Of a stretch of 11,021 nt of DNA, positions 1 through 11,021 are shown piece by piece (the stretch's first letter is position 1; each line of letters opens with the position of its first letter). The translations under genes were made by a program, and so were the position numbers. Where the stretch lies: assembly GCA_030039695.1 (NCBI GenBank), contig JASHVB010000533.1, positions 1 to 11,021 of the forward strand. Direction: 5' to 3'. This DNA comes from Acetobacteraceae bacterium. GTDB taxonomy: Bacteria > Pseudomonadota > Alphaproteobacteria > Acetobacterales > Acetobacteraceae. The notes under the pieces were generated by a model. It was not told where the DNA came from and made no database searches. It saw only the letters and a program-made list of their open reading frames with translations.

Positions 1-350
1 TTCGGCGCGCTTCGGCAGAGACGCGCGCGCTCTGGTCGCGCGCGAACGCCTACGTGCAGGAGGCCGCGCCCTGGACTGCGCTTGGGGCCGACCGGGCGCG
101 GGCAGCGCTGGTGACACGCACCGCACTCAACCTTGTACGGCTCAGTGCGACCGTGGCTTGGAGCATTGTGCCGAACCTCGCGGCGCGCGTCCTGCAGTTG
201 CTGGGCGATCCCTCAGCCGACACGACACCACGGTGGCCTGACAGAATCGACCACACGACCCTTAGTAAGATTACGGGTGTGCTAAGCCCCGCTCCTGCGG
301 AGCCTCTGGTTGCCAAGGTAACCGTCAATCACCTCGCGTTTGGCGAGTAG
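1..350 (+). CDS. metG: Methionyl-tRNA synthetase, C-terminal fragment (5' end outside window)
   Basis: The reading frame is open from base 3 to the TAG at 348-350. It enters from the left edge, so only about the last 115 residues are present. The segment around bases 45-170 reads ANAYVQEAAPW followed by RTALNLVRLSATVAWSIVP. This is the helical anticodon-binding domain of class I methionyl-tRNA synthetases, which charge tRNA-Met with methionine in the cytoplasm. The catalytic HIGH and KMSKS domains lie outside the window. The last ~25 residues (PLVAKVTVNHLAFGE at the end) look less conserved, and no C-terminal tRNA-binding EMAP-like domain follows, so this is the short form of the enzyme or one with an altered tail. 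The fragment is too small to show whether the whole gene is intact. Identification rests on remembered family sequence, not on a search. Confidence 0.78.
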   Translation, partial: RRASAETRALWSRANAYVQEAAPWTALGADRARAALVTRTALNLVRLSATVAWSIVPNLAARVLQLLGDPSADTTPRWPDRIDHTTLSKITGVLSPAPAEPLVAKVTVNHLAFGE

Positions 351-467
351 CCCGTGCATCGACTCTCTGCACCAATCCCGCCTTTCCTTGTCGGATCGGC
401 TGGAATCGACCCATTGCAGCCGTTAACCGCCAAGTTGATATTAAGGCGTGGTCCGGGAGAAACAGCG

Positions 468-970
468 ATGTTGGTCGTGTTCGGTGGCTTGCCGGGGACC
501 GGCAAGACCACGATCGCAATCGACAGATTGCAGCCCAGCGATCTGCGACTTACCTGCGCATTGACGACGTTGAGCAGGCCATCCGGACGTCAGGAGTTCT
601 CGTCGGGGACATCGGCCCAGCGGCTTACTTTGTTGCCAACGCACTGGCAGCGTCCGACCTGGCGAACGGACTTACTGTGGTCGTGGACTGCGTCAGTCCT
701 GTTGAGGAGAGTCGTCAAGGATGGCGAGAAGCGGAGACCCGTGCTCAAACACGAATTATCGAAATCGAAATTGTCTGTTCCGATCCTGTCGAGCATCGTC
801 GTCGAGTGGAGAGCCGAAATCCGGACATCGACGGCCTCATTTTACCGAGCTGGCAGGCAGTCTTGGAACGCAACTACTTGCCCTGGGAGGAGCCGCATCT
901 AATTATAGACACAGCCGACCTCACCCCGAATGAGGCAATGGCGTTCGTCGAGCAGCACATGAATGCTTAA
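468..970 (+). pseudogene. P-loop kinase / AAA-type ATPase, frameshifted after Walker A
   Basis: ATG 468 is preceded by GGGAGA at 455-460, a good ribosome site. The first 17 residues contain a perfect Walker A motif, GLPGTGKT (residues 7-14). The frame then breaks. From base 521 the family-like sequence continues one frame back (RQIAAQRSATYLRIDDVEQ onward), with VVVDCVSP as a Walker-B-like strand and IEIVCSDPVEHRRRVESR as a probable lid/arginine segment. It ends at the TAA 968-970. Joining the frames gives about 166 residues, the usual size of small predicted zeta-toxin or adenylylsulfate-kinase-like P-loop kinases. The break fits two extra bases near 519-520, or one lost base. The unshifted frame runs to 902 with meaningless sequence. 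No substrate can be assigned. A sequencing error would give the same picture, so pseudogene status is likely, not certain. Confidence 0.8.
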
Positions 971-974
971 GTCT

Positions 975-1022
975 GCTTTCCACCCGTCTCCTCCATACAT
1001 GCCACCGGGCCGGTTTCGACCC
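975..1022. repeat. First copy of a two-part intergenic repeat
   Basis: It begins five bases after the kinase pseudogene stop. GCTTTCCACCC (975-985) and GGTTTCGACCC (1012-1022) recur in the same order and orientation at 3894-3929. The following bases CGAAGCGGCCG (1023-1033) make a loose inverted counterpart of the GCTTT arm, so a degenerate palindromic element is possible. Confidence 0.4.
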
Positions 1023-1101
1023 GAAGCGGCCGTTCGACCCCTCGCCGCGGCGCAGTACGCATGGAATTGCCGCAGGCGCGGTAGCGGCATCGTTGTCCGG
1101 C

Positions 1102-1129
1102 TTGTCTCTTCGATGGCACAGGCTAAGAT
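1102..1129 (+). promoter_or_regulatory. Possible sigma70-type promoter for the DUF1993 gene
   Basis: TTGTCT (1102-1107) and TAAGAT (1124-1129) are separated by 16 bp and lie 40 bp before the start codon. Each hexamer matches the consensus at four of six positions. A second possible -35 (TTGTCC, 1093-1098) lies too far away. This is a modest call based on spacing and position only. Confidence 0.35.
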
Positions 1130-1168
1130 CGCCCGCAATCTTCCCTGACCCTACGAGGAGAGTGTTCC

Positions 1169-1678
1169 ATGGCGATCACGATGTACACCGGCTTTGTGCC
1201 GGTATGCCTGCAGTTGCTCGGTGGCCTCAAGACTGTGCTGCAGAAGGCTGAGGCGCACGCCACGGCCCAGAAATGGGATACCACCGTAGTGCTGAACCTG
1301 CGGCTCTTCCCCGACATGTTCCCGCTCGAGCGGCAGGTGCGGCAGGTCTGCACTCATTCATGCGGAGCGGGCCGGGTCGCCGGGATTAGCTTGCCGTCCT
1401 TCGCCGACCATGACAACAACTTCGCCGAGATGCAGGCGCGCATCGACAAGACCGTCGACTTCCTGAAAGGGCTGCGCGCGGATCAGCTCGACGGCAAGGA
1501 AGATACCGTCATCACGGTCCCGATGGGTGGCCAGCCGCGCGAGTTCAAGTGTCAGAATTACCTGTACCATTTCGCGATGTTGCAGGTGCAGTTCCACGCT
1601 ACGACGGCGTACGACATCATCCGCACCACCGGCGTCAACCTCAGTAAGCTCAACTATCTCGGCCAAATGCCGTCGTAA
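1169..1678 (+). CDS. DUF1993 family protein
   Basis: A complete 169-residue protein. The start ATG 1169 is supported by GAGGAGA at 1155-1161. The sequence follows the DUF1993 pattern throughout: LLGGLKTVLQKAEAHA near the N-terminus, then LNLRLFPDMFPLERQV at residues ~42-57, a middle helix with SFADHDNNFAEMQARI and a C-terminal FKCQNYLYHFAMLQVQFHATTAYDIIR. The family is cytoplasmic and helical, resembles the DinB/YfiT four-helix-bundle fold, and has no established reaction. The usual helix after the RQV segment, which I recall as resembling CDFAKGAAARLAG, is here CTHSCGAGRVAG. That is one residue shorter and unusual, but the frame is intact on both sides. It stands alone: the next gene starts 421 bp downstream. 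A small hairpin, CGTCG/CGACG (1671-1685), overlaps the stop codon. Confidence 0.85.
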   Translation: MAITMYTGFVPVCLQLLGGLKTVLQKAEAHATAQKWDTTVVLNLRLFPDMFPLERQVRQVCTHSCGAGRVAGISLPSFADHDNNFAEMQARIDKTVDFLKGLRADQLDGKEDTVITVPMGGQPREFKCQNYLYHFAMLQVQFHATTAYDIIRTTGVNLSKLNYLGQMPS

Positions 1679-2099
1679 ATCGACGCACTTATCCAATTGG
1701 TAGAGTCGACGACAGGCGCGGTAACGCTAGCTGCTCGATGAGTCGTTGGTGTCGCTTTCGCGCACTCCCCTCAATCACGGCTGGCACGGCTCCGTTTCCT
1801 GCCGCCGCTCGTCGAACTGGACGTGCGGAACTATCGTAACCGCGGCCGCAGCATCACATTGCTCGGAGCGGGTCGGTCATGATTGCGCGCCGCTGAGGCT
1901 GGCTGTCCCCCAATTTCATTGCGGTGTGCCTAGATGAGACCAAGGATCCCGCTCACCAGCTCCTGAATTCAGGGAATGTAGGCTAGGATGGTTCCCCAGT
2001 CGGTGGTCACGTGTCTCTCCTGGGCTCCAGGGGTGAGGAGGGGTTTCAACGAGACGAGACAAAGCGATGGCGGCTGCGCTTCACAGAGGAGACGGAAAC
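1679..2099. other. Intergenic stretch without a supportable gene
   Basis: The 421 bp between the DUF1993 gene and the next gene hold no convincing coding frame. A 63-codon open frame at 1746-1937 (+) has no ribosome site and no family resemblance. A short hairpin, CCTGG-GCT-CCAGG, lies at 2019-2031 in the leader of the following gene, and a GAGAC/GAGAC direct repeat lies around 2050-2060. The words at 1689-1705 look a little like a tRNA D-arm, but no tRNA is present. Confidence 0.5.
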
Positions 2100-2750
2100 A
2101 TGCCACAAAAAGGTCGCGGGATTTTCATGGTGTACGTTGATATCGACGCCAAAGACGTGCAGGAATTCAACGAGTGGTATAACAAGGAACATCTACCGGA
2201 ATTGTTATCGGTGCCCGGCATTCTCTCAGCGGCCCGCTACGAGGCAGTCAAGGGTGGCCCGCAGTACCTGGCATGCTACGAACTGGAAAGCGTGGCGGTG
2301 ATGCAGACGCCGGCGTTTACCAACCGGCCGCGGACGCCGTGGGGACAGAAAGTCTCACCGTCCGTGATTGGGAAGAATTTGACACGCATTGTCGGGGAAC
2401 AAATTTACCCGGACGGCATAGAAATGCCGGAGCGTGGCATGGCGCCGGTGTTGCAGATTGGCCGTATGTCCGTCCCCGCCGAGGTCGACGCGGAGTGGAA
2501 CGCCTGGTACAGTGACGAGTATGTGCCAGGCTACCGCAAGGTGCCCGGAGTGATCTACGCCCGCCGCTATCGGGTGCTCGAGGGTACCAGCGGCTACAGT
2601 ACTGTCTACGAATTTGCCAGCACGGCCGTGCCCGAAAGCCCGGCGTGGAAGGAGCAACAGCAACATTCCTCGCCCAATTCGCCGCGTATGCGGCAAGCCA
2701 TGACGCACGCACCGGGTTCGGCCGGGGTGTACGTACGGGTGAACCCCTAA
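2100..2750 (+). CDS. Tandem dimeric alpha-beta-barrel (ferredoxin-like) protein
   Basis: A complete 216-residue protein from ATG 2100, chosen over the in-frame ATG at 2067 because AGGAG (2087-2091) sits 8 bp before it. It is an internal duplication. Residues 9-64 and 117-174 each form one dimeric alpha-beta-barrel unit with the same signature: EFNEWYNKEHLPELLSVPG (22-40) and EWNAWYSDEYVPGYRKVPG (132-150). Each is followed by a strand ARY/ARRY and a second strand ending in YELES or YEFAS. Over 28 aligned core residues 12 are identical. Two fused units can form a pseudo-dimeric barrel in one chain. Relatives include EthD-like and small monooxygenase-like or isomerase-like proteins, but no catalytic residues can be assigned, so the function is unknown. 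There is no signal peptide or membrane segment. The last ~35 residues are polar and probably disordered. Confidence 0.78.
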   Translation: MPQKGRGIFMVYVDIDAKDVQEFNEWYNKEHLPELLSVPGILSAARYEAVKGGPQYLACYELESVAVMQTPAFTNRPRTPWGQKVSPSVIGKNLTRIVGEQIYPDGIEMPERGMAPVLQIGRMSVPAEVDAEWNAWYSDEYVPGYRKVPGVIYARRYRVLEGTSGYSTVYEFASTAVPESPAWKEQQQHSSPNSPRMRQAMTHAPGSAGVYVRVNP

Positions 2751-2823
2751 AGTCCAGGGTGCGCCAGAATGTAGCTGCTCGACATCATCGGCGGCCGTGC
2801 TCGATTTCGTCGACCAACCCTGC

Positions 2824-3563
2824 TCAAATTGAGTGATCGCAAGGTCTGCTTCGACGATTGTGCCGGCGGCCCGACGGTGGAGGTGCCGCGGCATGATGCC
2901 GGAACTGGGGCCTCCTACGCGGAGCTGGTGACGCCAAAGGTCGCCGGCGATCCGCAACTCCACACGCATGTCTACGGTGCCGAATGTGGTGCTCACCGAG
3001 AGTGGCCGGGTAGGTGGGCGCGTCCCCCAAGGCCGAGTAGAGGATCTTTTGGATGGTGCGGCGGACGTCGCGTTCGAATTCCGTCTCGGGTACGTCCGGG
3101 GGATGGAAATAGAGCTGGTAGAAGAGTGAGTTGTCGTTCTCCGGCATCGTGGTGGTCGGGCGGACCTGCCCCCGGGGCATAAACCGTACGCTCAAACCGA
3201 TCACTCCATTGAAGCGGTCGGGGCGCAAAAGCGCCGCCTGCCACGCCACCGGGGCGCCCCAATCGTGGCCGGCAATCACTGCTGTCTCAACACCCAAAGC
3301 GTCGGGCAGACCTACTACGTCGCCAACGAGGTGCAGCAGTATGTACTTGTCGATCTCTCTGGACGGTCTCGTACGACCAAAGCCACGCATGTCTCGCGCG
3401 ACAACGTGGCATCCGGCCTGTGCAAGCGCTTCGAACTGATGGCGCCAGGAGTACCAGGATTCAGGAAAGCCGCGGCAGAGGACAACCAGGGGGCCTGCGC
3501 CCTGCCAACCACACGCATACGAATTCCGTTCGTTTCGACGGTTAGGTGCTTTACCTCGTTCAT
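2824..3563 (-). pseudogene. Epoxide-hydrolase-like alpha/beta hydrolase, frameshifted and truncated
   Basis: Translation starts at ATG 3563-3561, with AGGAA about 10 bp upstream. It gives MNEVKHLTVETNGIRMRVVG and then loses frame near 3501-3506. The family sequence resumes in the frame of base 3501: AGPLVVLCRGFPESWYSWRH, later DKYILLHLVGDVVGLPDALG and GHDWGAPVAWQAALLRPDRF. The epoxide-hydrolase nucleophile Asp is the GAT at 3262-3264. The oxyanion-hole motif HGFP has become RGFP (CGC at 3472-3474, one transition from CAC). Similarity stops near base 3018 after GDAPTYP. The frame stays open to the TGA at 2824, but this tail is not hydrolase-like. About 100-130 C-terminal residues, with the acid and histidine of the triad, are missing. 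It cannot encode a working enzyme. The frameshift alone could be a sequencing error, but the missing C-terminus and the lost His cannot be explained that way. Confidence 0.85.
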
Positions 3564-3893
3564 CGTGGTATCGTTCCTAACTATCCTTGCTGCTACGGCG
3601 CGGCCACACTGCAGTAGATCTCGGCCCTACGCTAAAGTGCGCGTTTGCCTGAAGACTTCCTACTACTACTACTTTTTCCTCGCGAGAGTGGCCTGTTTGC
3701 GGTGAATAAGCATTCGCAAGATGACCGCCGGCTTCGACTGGTCCACGCTGAACATTAGGCATTGTGGCCACCCCGGCAATCATCTCAGGATCGGAGCGGT
3801 TCGCAGGCCTCGTTGTGGCTGACAGATTCACAGTAGCGCGGCTGACAACCTGTCAACGCCTAAGCGATTCTGTTCAGCCCCGTTTGGTTGACC

Positions 3894-3929
3894 GCTTTCC
3901 ACCCTGAGTCGCTGGTATGGTCTCGACCC
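3894..3929. repeat. Second copy of a two-part intergenic repeat
   Basis: GCTTTCCACCC (3894-3904) is identical to 975-985. GGTCTCGACCC (3919-3929) differs from GGTTTCGACCC (1012-1022) at one base. The two parts are 14 bp apart here and 26 bp apart in the other copy. Both copies are intergenic, which suggests remnants of a dispersed repeat, though two short words are limited evidence. Confidence 0.4.
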
Positions 3930-4060
3930 ATTCAAACTAGACACGCTTCGCAATTGACTGCCCGGAAGCAGACTTAGGCAGAAAGTGCTCGTCGGTGGTG
4001 AGCAGCTTCCCCCTGGAGCGATAGCTGGTATGGTTCAGTGCACGGCAATCCTGTTCCGGG

Positions 4061-4088
4061 TTGGCACAAGTGCGGGATATGCTATAGT
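4061..4088 (+). promoter_or_regulatory. Strong sigma70-type promoter with extended -10, for the GFA gene
   Basis: TTGGCA (4061-4066) and TATAGT (4083-4088) each match the consensus at five of six positions. The spacer is 16 bp and TGC directly precedes the -10 hexamer, an extended -10. Transcription would start near 4095, giving a leader of about 75 bases to the ATG at 4171. Confidence 0.68.
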
Positions 4089-4118
4089 TTTGGCCGTAAA
4101 TGCTATATGTTTTTGCCG
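4079..4118 (+). promoter_or_regulatory. Phased direct repeat over the GFA promoter; candidate operator
   Basis: ATGCTATA occurs at 4079-4086 and again at 4100-4107, exactly 21 bp apart, about two helical turns. The similarity extends through GTTTTGGCCG (4087-4096) and TGTTTTTGCCG (4108-4118). The first copy covers the -10 box and the second lies just past the predicted start site. That is a natural arrangement for a repressor binding two sites on one DNA face. No regulator gene is adjacent. Confidence 0.45.
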
Positions 4119-4170
4119 CCGATATGTTCGGCGACCTGCCCCAGACGCCAACCAATAGGGAAGGGCGGAT

Positions 4171-4611
4171 ATGGAACGTGTCGCACAATGTCACTGCGGC
4201 CAACTGCGTGTAATCGCAACAGGTTACCCGGACAGGGTCTACGTCTGCCACTGCATTGCTTGCCAACGTCGTACTGGTGCTGTCGTGCACTCGGGTGCCT
4301 ATTATCCGGCCAGCCAGGTTCGGCAGGAGGGTGTCGACAAAGTCTATAGTCGGACCGGCGATAGCGGACGCACTGTGCGTTTTCACTTCTGCCCAGATTG
4401 TGGAACATCGGTCTGGTGGGAGGGAGGGCCAACTGCGGGACACCGCGGTGTTGCCGTTGGATGCTTTGGCGACCCAAGTTTCTGGGCACCGACGTACTCG
4501 GTATATGAAGAAGGAAAGCACCCGTGGCTTGGCTTGCCCGCCAACGTTCGGGACCACTTCGGGAAGACACGCCCGCCAGAACACGTCCCTGCTCGTCCCT
4601 GGAAGGCGTGA
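4171..4611 (+). CDS. GFA / CENP-V domain zinc protein
   Basis: A complete 146-residue protein from ATG 4171, with AAGGG at 4161-4165 upstream. It has the full cysteine set of the GFA (glutathione-dependent formaldehyde-activating enzyme-like) fold: CHCGQLRV (Cys7, Cys9), CHCIACQRRTGA (Cys26, Cys28, Cys31) and FCPDCGTSVWWE (Cys74, Cys77). In this family these bind two zinc ions. The founding member Gfa was reported to speed formation of S-hydroxymethylglutathione, but most relatives have no proven reaction, so formaldehyde detoxification should not be assumed. The length fits a single-domain member and it is cytoplasmic. No formaldehyde dehydrogenase gene is nearby. It is monocistronic and converges on the fusion gene, whose stop lies 135 bp away. 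Open frames on the opposite strand across this gene are shadows. Confidence 0.9.
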   Translation: MERVAQCHCGQLRVIATGYPDRVYVCHCIACQRRTGAVVHSGAYYPASQVRQEGVDKVYSRTGDSGRTVRFHFCPDCGTSVWWEGGPTAGHRGVAVGCFGDPSFWAPTYSVYEEGKHPWLGLPANVRDHFGKTRPPEHVPARPWKA

Positions 4612-4699
4612 GTGACGCGCAGTAAGGGGTCACCGCACGATCTGTGCAAAATCGTAAGCTAGCGGCGGCGGCTCCTAGGACAGGTATGCACGAGCGACA

Positions 4700-4727
4700 T
4701 TGCCGGAAAGAATGCGAGCAACGGCAA
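4700..4727. repeat. Inverted repeat between convergent genes
   Basis: TTGCCG (4700-4705) and CGGCAA (4722-4727) are perfect complements around a 16-base loop, between the converging stops at 4611 and 4747. It may act as a weak two-way terminator, but no T-run follows on either strand. Confidence 0.3.
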
Positions 4728-4746
4728 CATCTGGAGTTTGGCCACC

Positions 4747-6846
4747 CTACAGAAGCTCGGCAAGCAGTGCAGCCGCTCGAACGTCTCCATCGCTCTCGAC
4801 GCAGCGATAGGCGGCGGGACGGCTAAGCCGTTGCAAAATGGCACCGGCGATGTCGTCGGGGGTTGAGTTCATGTAGTCCATGTGGTGCCCGGCGCAGTAG
4901 CACCCGAGACGATGCCGCACGTGCACAGTTTGTTCGAAGTGATTGTGCAATGGGAAGTAGATGAAGGGGATTTTGGCGGCGGTGAGTTCCATGCAGGTCG
5001 TCAGGCCGCCCTGAACCACCGCGATATCGCAAGCGGCGAGGTGGAGATGAAGATCGGCGACGTAGCCGCGTATTTCCACCCCTGGGACACGGGGCAGTCT
5101 CTTGGGATCGATGCGCGGGCCGGCGACGATCACAAAGCGCAGTTCGGGCAGCCGCTCACGCGCGGGGGTGGTTGCTTCCAGCACACGTCTCAGCAGAGAC
5201 TCCCCGACGCCGGAGCCGCCCACGGTGACGATGCAGATTTTCTCATCCTCGGCGTAACCGAGCCGGTGCCGTAACGTGGCGTGATCGGCGATGTCACCGG
5301 GGTCGATGCCGGTGATATAGCCGGAAAAGTCGAAGTGCTGTTGGGTCCAGTCGCGTATCGCGGGCAAGCCGGGTCCGAATGTGGCGTCAACGATGTCCTC
5401 GGGATTGCCGACGTAGATCGAGCGGTCGCGGACGCGCGGATAACGCTCGATGTGCTCCAGCATTTCGGCGTTGTAGTCGGCCGTCAGATAAGCCTCGCGG
5501 TCACCACCTTCCGGCATCGGCATATAGCCGACGAAATCGGTGAACCAGGCAAACGCGCCGCGCTTGAGTTCGGGATGTTCATGCCAGAAATGATCGACGT
5601 CCCATGCCTCATCACCTATGATGAGATCGTATTGCCCGTCCTCTACTACTTCCTGAAACACCATGAAATTGGCGACCAGGATTTCGTCCATGTTGCGCAG
5701 AGCCTGGAAGACATGCAGGTCGTGCTCGCCCGCTTCGCTTTCGATGTGCTGGGATTCGTTCACCAGGAGGCGGCTCGCGGGGTGAATGGTTTCTCCGACG
5801 CGATCAAGCAACGTTGTGACCGGGTGCTGGGCGAGCCACTCGATCTGCAGTTCGGGCCGTTGCTGACGCAGGCGCCGGGCGATCGCCAGATCGCGGCGCG
5901 CGTGCCCCAGGCCGATGGGTGAGGAGAGGTAGAGCACGCGATGGCTGCGGCCGAGGCCGTGACGAATGACCGACGGCGCGGCGATGCGACCGGTGGTGCG
6001 ATCGGCGAAGTCCTTGATCAGGCGGTTCATCGCTACCGGATGACGCGCGATCGGAATGTGGCCTGATCCTTGCAATGTGATGAGTGGTGCACCGATTATC
6101 TCGGCCACGCGCTGTCCCTTTCCGTACGGTACGATCCCGTCACGGTCACCATGGACGACAAGGGCCGGACGGCGGATCGTGCGGTACAGATCCTCACCCT
6201 GCGCCCATTCGGACTGCGCTCGCCCGAGCACCGTGTCGGTCAGGACTTCGGGGGCGGTTTCGCAAGCCCAGCCGATCGCGTCCTCGATCTGCTTTGTCGA
6301 ATGCGGCTCTGGAAAAGCCTGGGTGAAGAAAAATTCCGCGAAGCCGCGGTAATCGCGCCGCCAATACTCGCGGTTGAACTTGCCCCAGCCTTCCTCGGTC
6401 TTGAGAGCGCCGAGGAAGTCAGACCGGCCGGTGATCGGCTGCCCGAAGGGTGCTGTGGGCGCGATCAGCATGGTGCTGACGACGCGTTCGGGATGGCGTG
6501 CGGTGATGACCGCAGCGAGGTGACCGCCCAGTGAGAGGCCGACGACCACGGCTATGCCGGTGCCGGTAGCATCCATCACCGCCAGGGCGTCGGCGACATA
6601 TTCTTCGTTGCGGTAAGCGTCGACACCCCGCGGCCGGTCCGACAGTCCGTTCCCCCGCCCGTCGAGGGTAATGACGCGGTAATGGCGTGCGAGATAGGGG
6701 ACCTGGGCCTTCCAGAGTCGTGCGTGGACAATCGCCCAGGCCGGCAGCAGCAGGATTGTTTCGCTGCCCTGGCCGTGCACTTCGTAGTAGGTTTTGACGC
6801 CGTCGCGTTCGACATAGCCGGATTTATCGGGCTGACGCGCGCGCAT
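4747..6846 (-). CDS. Alpha/beta hydrolase - glycosyltransferase (GT-B, MGT-like) fusion protein
   Basis: One uninterrupted 699-residue frame. ATG 6846 is preferred because GGAG lies 8 bp upstream. A TTG at 6876 would add ten residues but lacks a ribosome site. Residues ~8-285 are an alpha/beta hydrolase with the nucleophile elbow GLSLGG (Ser105), GDRDGIVP (Asp236) and GSGHIP (His263), so the triad is complete. After a short linker (~285-302) residues ~303-699 form a GT-B glycosyltransferase: SSPIGLGHARRD (308-319) at the N-lobe, VTVGGSGVG (540-548) and QGGLTTCMEL (612-621) with PLHNHFEQ (632-639) in the nucleotide-sugar-binding C-lobe. The end RAAALLAELL looks like a natural family C-terminus. 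No signal peptide or membrane segment is seen. It probably hydrolyses and glycosylates a small molecule, or does both to one scaffold; the donor sugar and acceptor are unknown. The gene overlaps tetR by 23 bp and is likely co-transcribed and translationally coupled. Confidence 0.9.
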   Translation of the reverse strand: MRARQPDKSGYVERDGVKTYYEVHGQGSETILLLPAWAIVHARLWKAQVPYLARHYRVITLDGRGNGLSDRPRGVDAYRNEEYVADALAVMDATGTGIAVVVGLSLGGHLAAVITARHPERVVSTMLIAPTAPFGQPITGRSDFLGALKTEEGWGKFNREYWRRDYRGFAEFFFTQAFPEPHSTKQIEDAIGWACETAPEVLTDTVLGRAQSEWAQGEDLYRTIRRPALVVHGDRDGIVPYGKGQRVAEIIGAPLITLQGSGHIPIARHPVAMNRLIKDFADRTTGRIAAPSVIRHGLGRSHRVLYLSSPIGLGHARRDLAIARRLRQQRPELQIEWLAQHPVTTLLDRVGETIHPASRLLVNESQHIESEAGEHDLHVFQALRNMDEILVANFMVFQEVVEDGQYDLIIGDEAWDVDHFWHEHPELKRGAFAWFTDFVGYMPMPEGGDREAYLTADYNAEMLEHIERYPRVRDRSIYVGNPEDIVDATFGPGLPAIRDWTQQHFDFSGYITGIDPGDIADHATLRHRLGYAEDEKICIVTVGGSGVGESLLRRVLEATTPARERLPELRFVIVAGPRIDPKRLPRVPGVEIRGYVADLHLHLAACDIAVVQGGLTTCMELTAAKIPFIYFPLHNHFEQTVHVRHRLGCYCAGHHMDYMNSTPDDIAGAILQRLSRPAAYRCVESDGDVRAAALLAELL

Positions 6847-7474
6847 GGTCTGTGCTCCGTGGCTTCGTCTCTTCAAGTTTTCGGATCAGTGCCCCGAAGC
6901 GGCGTAAGGCGCGACGGATCGGCATGCCGGTCTCCTCGAAGCCGAGAAGCAGCATCGCCTCACAGCCGAGGAAGGCATTGCCGATGAGCGTTGCGATATC
7001 GTCCGGTTTCAGGGGACCGACCGGGCCGGTTTTGGCAATGACTTCCTTGCCGACATCTGCGAGCAGCGCGTACCAACCGGCGAGAAAATCGCGCACCGCG
7101 GCGGCGATATTGGGGTTGGACCAACCGGCGGCCATCATCTCCTGCAAGATGCGCACGTAGCCGGAGGCCAGGTCCTGATCGAGGTAGTCGCAGGCCTGCT
7201 GCCAGCGCCTCCACAGCGGCAGGTCGGCCGCGAACATGGCGCGCTGACGTTCCAGCAGGCGATTGTTCTGGTGCTGCAGCAAAGCGAGCAGCAGCGCGTC
7301 CTTGGAGCCAAAATAATAATGGATCTGGCTTAAAGGCATGTCGGCGGATTCGGCGACCCGACGGGTCGAGAGGCCGGAAATGCCGTGTGCACGCAGGCAG
7401 CGCTCGGCTGCTTCCAGCAACATAGTGCGGGTATCCGCCTCTGGCCCTGCCGTAGCGATTGCCCGCCGCGCCAT
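6824..7474 (-). CDS. TetR/AcrR-family transcriptional regulator
   Basis: A complete 216-residue protein from ATG 7474, with GAGGG (7489-7485) 10 bp upstream. Residues ~14-60 are the TetR DNA-binding domain, with a helix-turn-helix at ~35-55 reading LSTRRVAESADMPLSQIHYYF and then GSKDALL. This is the typical N-terminal three-helix unit ending in YFGSK. The remaining ~150 residues are the variable ligand-binding and dimerisation domain. Such proteins are homodimeric repressors released by a small ligand. It is the first gene of a two-gene leftward operon, and its TAA lies inside the fusion gene. A near-consensus promoter (7549-7577) and an 18-bp inverted repeat over the predicted start site (7532-7549) suggest that it represses its own operon and perhaps the divergent methyltransferase. 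The ligand is probably a substrate or product of the neighbouring enzymes, which is an inference. Confidence 0.92.
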   Translation of the reverse strand: MARRAIATAGPEADTRTMLLEAAERCLRAHGISGLSTRRVAESADMPLSQIHYYFGSKDALLLALLQHQNNRLLERQRAMFAADLPLWRRWQQACDYLDQDLASGYVRILQEMMAAGWSNPNIAAAVRDFLAGWYALLADVGKEVIAKTGPVGPLKPDDIATLIGNAFLGCEAMLLLGFEETGMPIRRALRRFGALIRKLEETKPRSTDHARASAR

Positions 7475-7531
7475 GATGATTTTTCCCTCGCGTTTTCGTT
7501 TGACTCCGGCCTAGAGCCGAGGCATAGTTAG

Positions 7532-7549
7532 TTCAGTCGACCGACCGAA
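7532..7549. promoter_or_regulatory. Candidate TetR operator, 18-bp inverted repeat
   Basis: TTCAGTCGACCGACCGAA reads as half-sites TTCRGTCG and CGACYGAA around a central AC. Fourteen of 18 positions are symmetric, with one mismatch per arm plus the central pair. TetR-family operators are usually inverted repeats of this size. It begins at the -10 box of the leftward promoter and covers its predicted start site (~7542). Confidence 0.65.
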
Positions 7550-7577
7550 TTATAGAGGGTTCGTATGCGACCGTCAA
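7549..7577 (-). promoter_or_regulatory. tetR-fusion operon promoter
   Basis: On the minus strand, TTGACG (7577-7572) and a perfect TATAAT (7554-7549) are separated by 17 bp. This is close to an ideal sigma70 promoter. The start would be near 7542, leaving a leader of about 67 bases before ATG 7474. A rightward -10-like TATAGA (7551-7556) overlaps it but has no good -35, so the methyltransferase promoter is not clear. Confidence 0.72.
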
Positions 7578-7670
7578 GTGCCATCAGACGGGCGACCGGC
7601 GGTCAGGATCTGGCACGGCGAGCCGCCGATCAGGGTGGCTTGCTGGTTATCTTCGAGGAGGACAACCGTC

Positions 7671-8723
7671 ATGGACGCGGCGAAACTGAAGGAGTTTGTC
7701 GGGCGTATGCTGGATGATTTGGGCGGCGCGTTGAGTGTGCCCATGGTACGAATCGGCGATCGTCTCGGGCTTTACAGGACGTTGCATGATCAGGGGCCAA
7801 TCACGGCGGGTGAACTCGCCGCGAAGGCTGGCATCAATGAACGCTATGCGCGGGAATGGCTGTGCCATCAGGCAGCGTCGCGTTATCTTGCCTATGATCC
7901 CGCAGCCGGAACGTTCGCTTTGCCGCCGGAGCAGGCGATGGTCTTCGCTGTGCCCGAGAGTCCTGTCTACATGATGGGCGCGTTCGATCTGGCGACGGCC
8001 ATGATGGACAACGAGCGGCTGGTCGAGCCCGCGTTCCGCACCGGCGCCGGGGTCGGCTGGGGCAGGCAGTCGCAATGCCTTTTTTGTGCCGTCGGACGCT
8101 TCTTTCGCCCGGGATATCACAATAATCTCGTGGCATCCTGGCTGCCCGCGCTGAACGGCGTCGTCGCCAAGCTGGAGCGCGGCGGCGTGGTCGCCGATGT
8201 CGGATGCGGCCACGGATTCTCAACCGTGATGATGGCCAAAGCGTTCCCGAAGGCCAGCTTCATTGGCTACGACTTTCACCCGGAATCCGTGGAGCAAGCC
8301 CGCATTCACGCGGCACAGCACGGCGTCACGGCGAATACGCGCTTCGAGGTAGCGACAGCGGTTGACTATCCGGGCCGGGACCTCGATTTGGTGACGTTCT
8401 TCGACTGTCTGCACGACATGGGCGACCCGGCGGGCGCGGCCCGGCATGTGCGGGAAACCTTGAAGCCCGACGGCACCTGGATGATTACCGAGCCAGCGGC
8501 AAACGATCGCTTGGAGGACAACATCAATCCGGTTAGCCGCTTGTTTTACGCGGCATCGACGTTGATCTGCGTGCCAACATCGCTCGACCAGCCGGGCCAA
8601 ATGGCGCTTGGAGCGCAGGCGGGCTTCGATCGGCTGTCGGCGATCGTCGGCAACGCGGGTTTCGGGCAGGTGCGTAAGGCAACCGAAACGCCGTTCAATA
8701 TGATCCTTGAGGCGCAACTTTAA
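7671..8723 (+). CDS. SAM-dependent methyltransferase, Rv2258c-like, with N-terminal winged helix
   Basis: A complete 350-residue protein. ATG 7671 is preferred over upstream in-frame starts because GAGGAG (7655-7660) lies 10 bp before it. Residues ~20-90 form a winged-helix-like dimerisation domain (GLYRTLHDQGPITAGELAAK, then AREWLCHQAA). Residues ~145-350 are a class I methyltransferase: motif I VADVGCGHG (174-182), the acidic residue after strand 2 in GYDFHP (Asp201), FFDCLHDMGDP (243-253) after strand 4, and DGTWMITEP (267-275) at strand 5. The layout matches the Rv2258c-like group; substrates in that group are largely unknown. The stretch at ~130-143 (GRQSQCLFCAVG) lies where relatives, as I recall them, carry a His-rich WxEHH-type segment, so its active-site region may differ. 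It is transcribed away from tetR and may share the operator. It probably methylates the same compound handled by the fusion protein, but that is an inference. Confidence 0.88.
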   Translation: MDAAKLKEFVGRMLDDLGGALSVPMVRIGDRLGLYRTLHDQGPITAGELAAKAGINERYAREWLCHQAASRYLAYDPAAGTFALPPEQAMVFAVPESPVYMMGAFDLATAMMDNERLVEPAFRTGAGVGWGRQSQCLFCAVGRFFRPGYHNNLVASWLPALNGVVAKLERGGVVADVGCGHGFSTVMMAKAFPKASFIGYDFHPESVEQARIHAAQHGVTANTRFEVATAVDYPGRDLDLVTFFDCLHDMGDPAGAARHVRETLKPDGTWMITEPAANDRLEDNINPVSRLFYAASTLICVPTSLDQPGQMALGAQAGFDRLSAIVGNAGFGQVRKATETPFNMILEAQL

Positions 8724-9001
8724 CTGGTATACATACCGTAACAATAGGGTCCCGACGGCGGGATATCTCTGACCGCAAGCCGCTACGGCCTCGGCGTACG
8801 CTCCAAGGGTGCGTGTGGAGCCAACGGTCGAATCGTTTTGCTGAATATACAGGGCCCACCGGACGATTTGTACAAAGTGGTCTGCTAAGCGGCGAGGACG
8901 GAATATAGGACGAGGATCCCGTAGAGCCCAAAGTTTGGGACTGAGAGAGTGTCGATGCATGTATAACTGGAGTTTCCACTAGTCTTAAAAATCCGATACC
9001 A

Positions 9002-9553
9002 AGCGACGATCCGTGACACGGTTGGTTGGCTGATGTTTTAGAGGCGTGCCATGTCGGCACCAGACTTCCGGCCCCTGATGACGCTCTCCGCAATCTCGCG
9101 TTGATTTGCGGCGTCGAGTTTCCAACGACGCTCGCCTGTTCACCCCTCGGCCCTGGCAGCGGCGAGACCGGCGGAGGTCCGTTCGCGAATCATCGCCCGC
9201 CTAAACCCGGCGAAGGCGCGGACCATCTGCATCATTATCCGTCCCGCCGGAGTGGTGGTTTCAACGTTCTCCGTGATCGAGCGGAAACCCGCACTCACGT
9301 TGCCGGTCCGGTCCATGATGTGCAGCACATCGTTCAGCGACCGCGAAAGATGATCGAGCTTCCAGACCACGACCATATCGCCCTCACGCGGGTGGTCCAG
9401 CATCCGGTGCAACTCGGGGCGATCCCAACGGCCGCCTGGCGCGGTCCCCCCGAACAGTCGCCGGCAACCTGCGGCCTTGAAGACTTTCGGTTGCAGGAAT
9501 GTCTGCTGTGTCCAGTCGGCCAACCGAAACCGGACAGGCAGAAGACCACCCAA
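9002..9553 (-). pseudogene. Serine recombinase (Tn3 resolvase/invertase type), decayed
   Basis: A single frame runs through a recognisable resolvase. FKAAGCRRLF and RPELHRMLDHPREGD come first, followed by VVVWKLDHLSRSL, FRSITENVETTTPAGRIM and IRERTSAGLAAARAEG. An in-frame TGA (9140-9142, one transition from CGA) comes next. After it the same frame reads RRWKLDAANQREIAESVIRG and GADMARL, then a TAA (9038-9040), then NISQPTVSRIVA, the C-terminal helix-turn-helix that binds DNA. The position of the catalytic serine (ARVS in the family) appears as RLA, with GCC at 9518-9520. The conserved DRL of the active site is DHL (9350-9352). The gene is therefore inactive. It is a relic of a transposon or invertible element. 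No inverted repeats, res site or partner transposase were recognised beside it. The next 278 bp towards the methyltransferase (8724-9001) hold no gene; a short palindrome GGTAT-AC-ATACC lies at 8726-8737. Confidence 0.88.
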
Positions 9554-9920
9554 GGCGGTCGCTCGTCGGCCGCCCGTGCCGACGCTTCGATGGCGCCAAG
9601 AACCGCATTATAGGTGGTCACCGTCAGAACCTTTGAAGTGCGGTCGTGCGAAGAGAAGGATACTTGCAGGTGGCTAAATCTTGCCAAAACAAGATGACCA
9701 TCACCGCCGCTGATACAGAGCTCATCATGCGAACCACGAAATCCACAGCGAAAGGCTGATCCGCACAGGGTGGCTGAGCTTGATCACAGCAGCCCCTGCT
9801 GCTGCCGTCGAAATCGAAGAAGTCCAGCACCTCCTACGAAGCATGAAAAGGAGATTGCAGTTCCGCAGGCAGGCCGGCATGCTGCGCGACAACTGACTGA
9901 CAATCGAATGGAGGTTTGCA
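9554..9920. other. Intergenic stretch with two small inverted repeats
   Basis: These 367 bp lie between the divergent recombinase relic and cupin gene. No open frame here resembles a known family. ATCTTG-CCAAAA-CAAGAT (9678-9695) is a perfect 6-bp inverted repeat, and CAGCAG-CCC-CTGCTG (9787-9801) another. The first could be a small operator or a hairpin. No clear promoter for the cupin gene was found. Confidence 0.45.
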
Positions 9921-10391
9921 GTGGATAAGACATCGGGATTCGATCCGCTGACGCTGCCTGAAAGCAACGCGACCAGTTATCCGGAACCCTACCGCACCGC
10001 GAACCAGCAACGTTGGAACCGTCGCCTTGGGGATCACGCGAAGCTCACGAATTTTGGCGTGAACCTTACGCGCATCGTTCCGGGTGGTCAGTCCTCGCAT
10101 CGCCACGCGCACTCGCGGCAGGACGAGTTCATCTACGTCCTACAGGGTGAGGTCGAACTTGAGACCAACGCCGGCGTCGAGGTGTTGCGTCCTGGCATGT
10201 GCGCCGGCTTTCCGGCCGGAACAGGAAATGCCCATCGATTCGTCAATAGATCCGATGAGAACGTGCTTCTACTCGTGATCGGCGACCGTACCTCCGGCGA
10301 CGATATAAAATATCCCGACATCGACATGCACGGCCGTATGGGGCCGGACGGTAGGTACACTTTCACCCACGAGAACGGAACCCCGTACTGA
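9921..10391 (+). CDS. Single-domain cupin protein
   Basis: A complete 156-residue protein from GTG 9921. GGAGG at 9910-9914, six bases upstream, decides the start. Cupin motif 1 is exact: G56 then five residues, His62, His64, four residues, Glu69, six residues, Gly76. Motif 2 follows with G92, Pro98, Gly100, His105 and Asn109. His62, His64, Glu69 and His105 form a complete metal site in the beta barrel, so a metal-bound protein is likely, though the metal and reaction are not readable. The N-terminal ~40 residues (LPESNATSYPEPYR) and C-terminal tail (MHGRMGPDGRYTFTHENGTPY) resemble stand-alone cupins of unknown function, often annotated as sugar-isomerase-like or dioxygenase-like. No helix-turn-helix is present. 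It is monocistronic. Confidence 0.9.
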   Translation: MDKTSGFDPLTLPESNATSYPEPYRTANQQRWNRRLGDHAKLTNFGVNLTRIVPGGQSSHRHAHSRQDEFIYVLQGEVELETNAGVEVLRPGMCAGFPAGTGNAHRFVNRSDENVLLLVIGDRTSGDDIKYPDIDMHGRMGPDGRYTFTHENGTPY

Positions 10392-10774
10392 CGGGGAGCG
10401 ACCATGCTGGAACTCGTCGCTCGGATCTCCGCCGTGCGTACAAACGCCTAGCATATCGACGCAACTTCAGGTATCGGAAGTACGCCCTGGAGCGCAAACG
10501 AATACATCGGCGGGTTTACCGCTCCGCCAACTTTTCTCTTGCCCATTGGTGGGAAGTCCCAACAGGACAAGAGCTTAGACCGGTCGCCCGAGGGCCTCCA
10601 GAGCTGGCGAATCAGGGGGGTGATGCCCTGCGCGCTACAGCCGCGTTCGATCCAATTTACGGTCAGCGACGCCCTGAACACTTGCAGGACGGTTGCCTCC
10701 GAGATCCGCCGGTGAACATAATTTCGGATTCACGCCCACTGCAACACTTGGCCTTGTCGTGTGGACCCACCGAT
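10392..10774. other. Intergenic stretch, unassigned
   Basis: These 383 bp lie between the cupin gene and the convergent gene at the right edge. Apart from the hairpin at 10396-10422, frames are open for about 75-80 codons on both strands between ~10450 and 10710, without ribosome sites or recognisable family sequence. I cannot support a gene here. Confidence 0.4.
10396..10422 (+). terminator. Hairpin after the cupin gene, possible terminator
   Basis: GAGCGAC (10396-10402) pairs perfectly with GTCGCTC (10416-10422) around a 13-base loop, four bases after the cupin stop codon. ACGG (10391-10394) and a downstream CCGT could extend it with bulges. No T-run follows, so it is not a classic intrinsic terminator. 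Confidence 0.35.
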
Positions 10775-11021
10775 TTAGAAATAGTCCGTATGCAGGATTC
10801 CAAGTTGGCCGATAAGCTCGTTTAAGTCCGTTTTATCTCCAGCGCAACTCACAACCTGCCAGTATTCCTGCCCACCTATCAGGAGGTATGTCACCGCGAC
10901 GATGACACCTCCCTTGACCCCGTGCACGTCCGAGCCAACCTCAATACCAGTATACCCAAGCGACGGAAGGCCATAGTAGATGTTCGTAGCGATTAGGTTT
11001 TTGACATCGTCGACCGTCTTG
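10775..11021 (-). CDS. Unrecognised protein, C-terminal fragment (5' end outside window)
   Basis: The minus-strand frame is open from the right edge (first full codon 11020-11018) to TAA 10777-10775, giving 81 residues and no start codon inside the window. The sequence looks like a real folded protein: KTVDDVKNLIATNIYYGLPS and GYTGIEVGSDVHGV, then the strand GGVIVAVTYLLIGG, QEYWQVVSCAGD, and a closing helix NELIGQLGIL. It has alternating hydrophobic strands, balanced charge and a few cysteines. I do not recognise the family. It is soluble as far as seen. The base composition is visibly less GC-rich than the fusion and methyltransferase genes, with frequent A/T-ending codons, which may point to a different origin. 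Competing frames over this stretch contain stops. Moderate confidence that it is coding; no function proposed. Confidence 0.65.
   Translation of the reverse strand, partial: KTVDDVKNLIATNIYYGLPSLGYTGIEVGSDVHGVKGGVIVAVTYLLIGGQEYWQVVSCAGDKTDLNELIGQLGILHTDYF

Follow-up and report, generated by a model that had tools for sequence, protein, structure and literature searches.

The 11,021-nucleotide stretch of an Acetobacteraceae genome analyzed here (contig JASHVB010000533.1, positions 1 to 11,021; hereafter the window) carries a compact module in which a TetR-family regulator precedes a fusion of an alpha/beta hydrolase with a GT-B glycosyltransferase (GT), and a methyltransferase (MT) dependent on S-adenosylmethionine (SAM) diverges from a shared control region. 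On balance, we favor the view that the module is an inducible detoxification operon whose products would hydrolyze, glycosylate and probably S-methylate a small, perhaps thiol-bearing compound. The gene composition, the predicted operator, the exchange of methyltransferases between loci and the conserved active-site residues are drawn from sequence comparison. The strongest clue, which lay outside the reach of a preliminary description of this DNA, is that the methanethiol S-methyltransferase MddA occupies the place of the MT in many related loci. The three genes, whose neighbors in the window were judged within about 11 kb, are:

Positions 6824-7474, minus strand: TetR-family regulator, 216 aa, first gene of the minus-strand operon (TetR_N, E 7e-12).
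Positions 4747-6846, minus strand: alpha/beta hydrolase-GT-B glycosyltransferase fusion, 699 aa, ATG at 6846 and stop at 4747.
Positions 7671-8723, plus strand: SAM methyltransferase with an N-terminal Rv2258c-like winged helix, 350 aa, ATG at 7671.

Open reading frames and Pfam matches agree with the preliminary description, which had the TetR gene overlapping a hydrolase-GT fusion and a divergent MT; the overlap amounts to 23 bp, and the control region between the TetR and MT genes (7475-7670) has the 196 bp assigned to it there. Judged from the lengths of homologues, the best start of the fusion is ATG 6846 (close homologues of about 698-702 aa) and that of the MT is ATG 7671, behind GAGGAGGA (closest homologues mostly 350-356 aa); the starts also listed at TTG 6876 and GTG 7578, respectively, are probably too long.

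We compared the window with loci selected by the presence of the fusion. A first genome scan supplied 80 loci, the best of 263 fusion relatives, and further loci came from genome draws by phylum or class, one Deinococcus plasmid and the window itself; 112 unique loci remained after removal of five duplicates, with 13 duplicates dropped at another step. Neighbors were counted from open frames; a simple gene caller misses the MT in L065, L073, L075 and L177. A TetR gene stands beside the fusion in 80 of the 112 loci, 77 times upstream on the same strand, and profile matches place it within 25 bp of the fusion or overlapping it in 64 of these 77. An MT carrying the HTH_65 domain lies within 3 kb of the fusion in 29 loci: 15 times upstream and 10 times downstream on the same strand, and four times divergently upstream (L008, L034, L063 and the window). 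The expectation that the same genes would be found together in distant taxa is thus borne out by 28 loci besides the window, from Pseudomonadota, Actinomycetota and Chloroflexota.

The gene clusters recurring within 3 kb among the first 82 loci are the fusion (81), TetR (60), MddA (29), MT (24) and a LuxR-type regulator (10), all others reaching at most five. The GFA, EthD-like, DUF1993 and cupin genes of the window are all without counterparts in the remaining 111 loci at E 1e-5. Because the module genes recur and these outer genes of the window do not, the module ends where the preliminary description had placed its boundaries. An accidental grouping of these genes would suit the rest of the window, which looks eroded (a resolvase fragment and gene pieces), but recurrence over 112 loci from several phyla, a shared operator and the lack of recurrence of the non-module genes leave that explanation virtually no chance, and we reject it. 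The grouping of the genes into one system, supported by shared synteny and by a conserved regulator and operator, is real, and both module and operator are well supported by these comparisons. The pieces surrounding the module are a resolvase N-terminal piece (9140-9553), part of another alpha/beta hydrolase (2824-3390) and a methionyl-tRNA synthetase-like piece clipped by the window end (3-350).

The methylation slot of the module is filled by different enzymes. MddA lies within 3 kb of the fusion in 35 of the 112 loci (33 upstream and two downstream, all on the same strand), and none of the 112 contains both MT and MddA; two of the 64 MT or MddA matches are pieces at contig ends (the MT in L062 and the MddA in L061). 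The 30 loci added after the first scan follow the same pattern, with MT in three, MddA in six and both in none. All 12 of the 35 linked MddA proteins that were tested exceed the NCBIfam equivalog cut-off for methanethiol S-methyltransferase (NF045656, 270). On a quick tree of 105 fusions, from which seven pieces shorter than 500 aa were left out, the MT and MddA labels require at least five changes of state; the starred branches alone force six label changes for MT and five for MddA, each against all other rows, gain and loss being indistinguishable. A third methyltransferase, a class I SAM enzyme of about 208-245 aa with no HTH_65 match, occurs in five loci that have neither MT nor MddA (L012, L064, L167, L178 and L185), at distances of 84 to 3202 bp. 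In L064 a second operator copy leads a unit in which this gene comes second; in L167 the gene opens an operator-led operon that continues to TetR and the fusion. Its motifs may resemble those of the TMT1/METTL7 thiol methyltransferases. Since one slot holds at least two unrelated methyltransferase families, one of known thiol chemistry, and since MddA fills this slot in many other bacteria, S-methylation is our best guess for the chemistry of the window MT, which we infer solely from the slot exchange.

Read by eye, L167 (3389-8106) contains an operator, the third methyltransferase, an MFS-transporter-like gene, TetR and the fusion in one apparent operon. The earlier statement that no transporter is present accordingly holds for the module of the window but not for this relative.

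The window MT itself contains Methyltransf_31 (E 7.1e-20) and HTH_65 (PF21320, Rv2258c-like winged helix; E 8.8e-16), the combination of PF21320 and a SAM methyltransferase domain that places it among the HTH_65 methyltransferases; the winged helix was absent from the preliminary description. Its closest solved relatives are TnmJ (E 1.6e-60) and 5f8c (E 2.2e-39), the latter presumably the structure of Rv2258c. It does not score as MddA: its best NCBIfam score is 35.1, and NF045656 (cut-off 270) is not among the best 25 of 32 families. At least 7999 HTH_65 MT homologues were scored.

Across 47 loci, including the window, a search for dyads in the regions preceding TetR or MddA yielded the operator consensus TTCGGTCGNNCGACCGAA. 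The dyad TCGGTC-N4-GACCGA was found in 38 of the 47, whereas the commonest 6-mer dyad in each of five shuffles reached one or two. We divided the loci into class A, with a close TetR (61 loci), and class B, with a distant TetR (19 loci). In the tested upstream regions of class A, the consensus is present at no more than three mismatches in 55 of 61 loci and at no more than one in 52, compared with none of the 61 after a single shuffling of these regions. The inverted repeat at 7532-7549, noted earlier in the window, thereby emerges as a conserved predicted operator. Scanning the window at up to three mismatches returns two sites (7532-7549 with one mismatch and 9511-9528 with three), against 0.09 expected. 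The elements of the control region are:

Positions 7500-7528, plus strand: weaker sigma-70-like promoter for MT, TTGACT-17-CATAGT, 9/12 consensus.
Positions 7532-7549, no strand: predicted TetR operator (inverted repeat), TTCAGTCGACCGACCGAA, one mismatch to TTCGGTCGNNCGACCGAA.
Positions 7549-7577, minus strand: sigma-70-like promoter for TetR-fusion, TTGACG-17-TATAAT, 11/12 consensus, assigned by consensus match only.

The last base of the -10 element of the TetR-fusion promoter (7549) is the operator edge, and the MT promoter-like site ends 3 bp before the operator. Because it touches one promoter-like site and lies 3 bp from the other, the operator would cover both expected transcript starts, whose positions are themselves predictions. 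This is the predicted layout of an autorepressed divergent operon, and with a TetR helix-turn-helix domain and a conserved palindrome at the predicted regulated promoters the module has the features of a TetR-controlled operon.

The operator core is also largely confined to the module. Exact cores are present in 27 of 45 fusion-bearing genomes; one of these, G043, was set aside from the count (235 copies, a dispersed repeat). The remaining 26 genomes hold 38 exact-core sites, compared with two for a reversed control pattern, and the module accounts for 36 of the 38, of which 29 were assigned by listed position and seven by matching counts. Of the two off-module sites, one lies between convergent genes (G017:C44:13749, L141; not counted as regulatory) and the other, at a distance from the module, between two genes of the same strand (G006, L142). 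Operator copies usually precede the first gene of an operon, and one is also found in front of an MddA gene standing apart downstream of the fusion in L036 and L049.

Two further observations concern the operator. In G043 (Dactylosporangium, the genome of L077) the listed copies among the 235 exact cores are clustered, and L077 has many core copies between TetR and the fusion; these copies are a dispersed palindromic repeat resembling the operator. Class B loci have another dyad, TTAG-N8-CTAA, upstream of TetR in 8 of 19 (the commonest in shuffles reaches 3-4), with the longer form TTAGT-N6-ACTAA in five loci; it is probably a second operator type. The class B loci L005, L028 and L081 are among those with a low TetR score. 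The 14 loci that pair a LuxR-type regulator with MT yielded no dyad of comparable strength, the best 5-mer dyad occurring in 5 of 14 against 2-3 in shuffles.

The fusion contains alpha/beta hydrolase and Glyco_tran_28_C domains according to Pfam, and its structure is predicted with a mean pLDDT of 94.0 and a pTM of 0.93. Its halves are:

Positions 5992-6846, minus strand: alpha/beta hydrolase half, Abhydrolase_1 E 6.5e-22, predicted triad Ser105-Asp236-His263 (699-aa numbering).
Positions 4747-5943, minus strand: GT1-like GT-B glycosyltransferase half, with a two-Rossmann GT-B fold nearest GT1 enzymes.

Active-site residues are kept in both halves of the aligned fusions, the triad positions being Ser in 98 and Cys in seven of 105 and Asp and His in all 105. 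Fold and Ser/Cys-Asp-His triad identify the first half as an alpha/beta hydrolase. Its nearest solved folds are esterases and lactonases; Est816 and 3-oxoadipate enol-lactonase share fold and triad with it at approximately 20-26% identity, but differ from the window hydrolase in that the latter is fused to a GT. The preliminary description had included deglycosylation among the possible activities; its single system stands, but the matches of the hydrolase half are to esterase/lactonase-like alpha/beta hydrolases, with no sign of deglycosylation. The GT half is closest in fold to small-molecule GTs, i.e. macrolide and calicheamicin GTs, and among the first 20 rows of matches the macrolide GT 2iya, CalG1-G4 and Bacillus YojK/YjiC/UGT109A1 share 13-19% identity with it; the window GT differs from these macrolide and xenobiotic GT1 enzymes by its fusion to a hydrolase.

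This fold likeness, together with the weak scores that macrolide esterase models give for the hydrolase half, would fit a dedicated antibiotic-inactivation cassette combining a macrolide-type esterase with a macrolide-type glycosyltransferase. We consider such a cassette improbable: the hydrolase half scores at best 68.4 against a cut-off of 420 for the macrolide esterase NCBIfam models, far short of it, the module methyltransferases include MddA, and there is no rRNA methyltransferase match among the families listed. The fusion scores 26 against a cut-off of 260 for the macrolide GT (MGT) model, and with NCBIfam scores below the equivalog cut-offs we dropped membership in the macrolide resistance families.

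Variants of the fusion were also seen. The homologues P0071, P0079 and P0088 (about 1020 aa) are tandem hydrolase-hydrolase-GT proteins whose first hydrolase domain has GLCDS where the second has GLSMG, so that the first may be without its nucleophile. In L001 (8055-10106; Deinococcus sp. QL22 plasmid), TetR is followed by a hydrolase and a glycosyltransferase annotated as two genes, a fusion that would be either interrupted or truly split.

Based on these observations, we propose the following mechanism. TetR would bind the palindrome at 7532-7549, as its conservation and position suggest, and repress its own gene, the fusion and the MT until a lipophilic foreign or metabolic compound releases it. 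The hydrolase half would then cleave an ester, thioester or lactone, the GT1-like half would cap the freed nucleophile with a sugar, and the MT would cap a thiol (or other nucleophile, with sulfur most likely) by methylation. Derepression, reaction order, the thiol substrate and the MT chemistry are the parts of this proposal that we infer. The target molecule may be, or may release, a reactive thiol, as is suggested by the frequent presence of the thiol-methylating MddA in the methylation slot. OsmC is associated with peroxide stress, and an OsmC gene (Pfam E 5e-19) follows a second operator copy in L024, as does a like gene in L180 (by eye); such genes would fit thiol or peroxide stress.

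Two other uses of the same enzymes were weighed against detoxification. The module could be a sulfur-gas operon that methylates H2S and methanethiol to dimethyl sulfide (DMS), with the fusion in a subsidiary function, for example the release or storage of the sulfur compound. The cut-off passed by all the linked MddA proteins tested is consistent with this, as is the use of methanethiol and H2S by Mdd enzymes (PMC12904073). We nevertheless judge it unlikely: the fusion is constant (the loci were chosen by it) whereas the methyltransferase is variable or absent, larger acceptors would fit the GT1-like enzyme on the basis of the fold comparison, and MddA genes of the same genomes also occur away from the fusion. 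Alternatively, hydrolysis, glycosylation and methylation could finish or activate a natural product whose synthesis takes place elsewhere in the cell. The macrolide and calicheamicin GTs nearest the GT half point in this direction, as does TnmJ, the solved chain nearest the MT and the product of a tiancimycin cluster gene (PMC9464397), and LuxR-type (15 of 112 loci) and SARP-type regulators (8 of 112) accompany the fusion. Yet 44 of the 45 genomes carry a single fusion copy, no further enzyme cluster besides the module and the LuxR-type regulator occurs within 3 kb in more than five of 82 loci, and the operator is found almost exclusively at the module, so that a tailoring cassette, too, has a small chance in our estimation. 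GT1 enzymes can inactivate drugs and thiol methylation can lower toxicity, and we judge detoxification likelier than tailoring. Thiol methylation is a known route to lower thiol toxicity (PMC7921093, PMC12904073): METTL7B methylates H2S and thiol drugs (PMC7921093), and expression of mddM1 and mddM2 raises the tolerance of Escherichia coli to H2S and methanethiol (PMC12904073).

Several observations weigh against an inducible, thiol-directed detoxification operon. The fusion is uncommon: at E <= 1e-100 and with the center genome counted, draws from the phylum to which L015 belongs (Reyranella, Pseudomonadota) contained it in 4 of 398 genomes, and draws from the L015 class in 7 of 385; the corresponding counts are 27 of 396 for the L060 phylum (Cellulomonas, Actinomycetota) and 9 of 251 for the L005 phylum (Chloroflexota). 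The first 80 loci, being the best of 263 relatives, lean to close kin. Neither MT nor MddA is present in 48 of the 112 loci, 31 of which have at least 2.5 kb on both sides, and the third methyltransferase accounts for only five of the 48. The LuxR-type and SARP-type regulators mentioned above count on this side as well. The operator is present in 0 of 19 class B loci, nine of the 61 class A loci have two or more mismatches at their best site, and 18 of the 45 genomes lack an exact-core site. In those 45 genomes, 16 of 32 MT copies of at least 340 bits are unlinked to the fusion and nest among linked ones, and 13 fetched MddA copies lie away from any fusion. To our knowledge, neither TnmJ nor 5f8c, the nearest solved relatives of the MT, is known as a thiol methyltransferase.

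Some neighborhoods are recorded here as separate observations. DUF1326 and/or DUF2182/PpoB2 (copper chaperone according to Pfam) lie at most 4 kb from the fusion in nine of the 112 loci (L024, L028, L053, L068, L078, L160, L172, L187 and L192), and no paper naming both DUF1326 and DUF2182 was found in the literature searched. Read by eye, the unlinked MddA genes of L096, L097, L099 and L101 are near a winged-helix regulator and a CoA-transferase-like gene, and a GFA-like gene is also present in three of the four. An anti-phage defense system was considered and set aside as doubtful: PADLOC returned one partial match of the MT to mad2 (118 residues overlapping the SAM domain) and none for TetR or the fusion. 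No Rfam match reached the gathering score in the window, and an RNA element was likewise dropped.

Each enzyme family of the module is known; no description of the fusion combined with this regulator, operator and set of interchangeable methyltransferases was seen among the listed titles and abstract openings of the literature searched (few subscription papers covered). We know of no Rv2258c/TnmJ-type enzyme beside a hydrolase-GT fusion; these winged-helix HTH_65 methyltransferases are sequence relatives of the window MT, and their substrates are uninformative for it. MddA resembles the window MT in position but belongs to a different protein family. The available parts of the literature searched contain no link of MddA to a TetR-fusion operon, and the available text of PMC5607357 has none to TetR, its 'tetr' match being tetracycline. 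MddA is in turn unrelated to MddH, MddM1, MddM2 and TMT1 (PMC12904073). Bacterial MddH and MddM1/MddM2 and human TMT1A/B are like the module in the proposed thiol-methylating function; MddM1 and MddM2 have 210 and 204 aa (PMC12904073), compared with 350 aa and an HTH_65 domain in the window MT.

Finally, we put forward tentatively, as a possibility of somewhat less than even standing, that the HTH_65 MTs of the module methylate thiols on sulfur and form one more enzyme family recruited independently for this reaction. They would trade places with MddA and a TMT1-like enzyme in a single slot next to a fusion that commonly lies under one TetR operator, and the module would parallel, in bacteria, the combination of phase I and phase II steps in drug metabolism. 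The mddA gene has been counted in soil metagenomes as a source of methanethiol-dependent DMS (PMC5607357); with mddA tied to a conserved TetR operon that includes a hydrolase-GT fusion, some of these counts may not report DMS production. If the HTH_65 MTs are indeed thiol S-methyltransferases, many soil mddA genes would serve the capping of xenobiotic thiols and not DMS production, and the numerous HTH_65 methyltransferases would gain a concrete activity to assay. The module supplies a DNA site, a regulator and interchangeable enzymes, each of which is testable.

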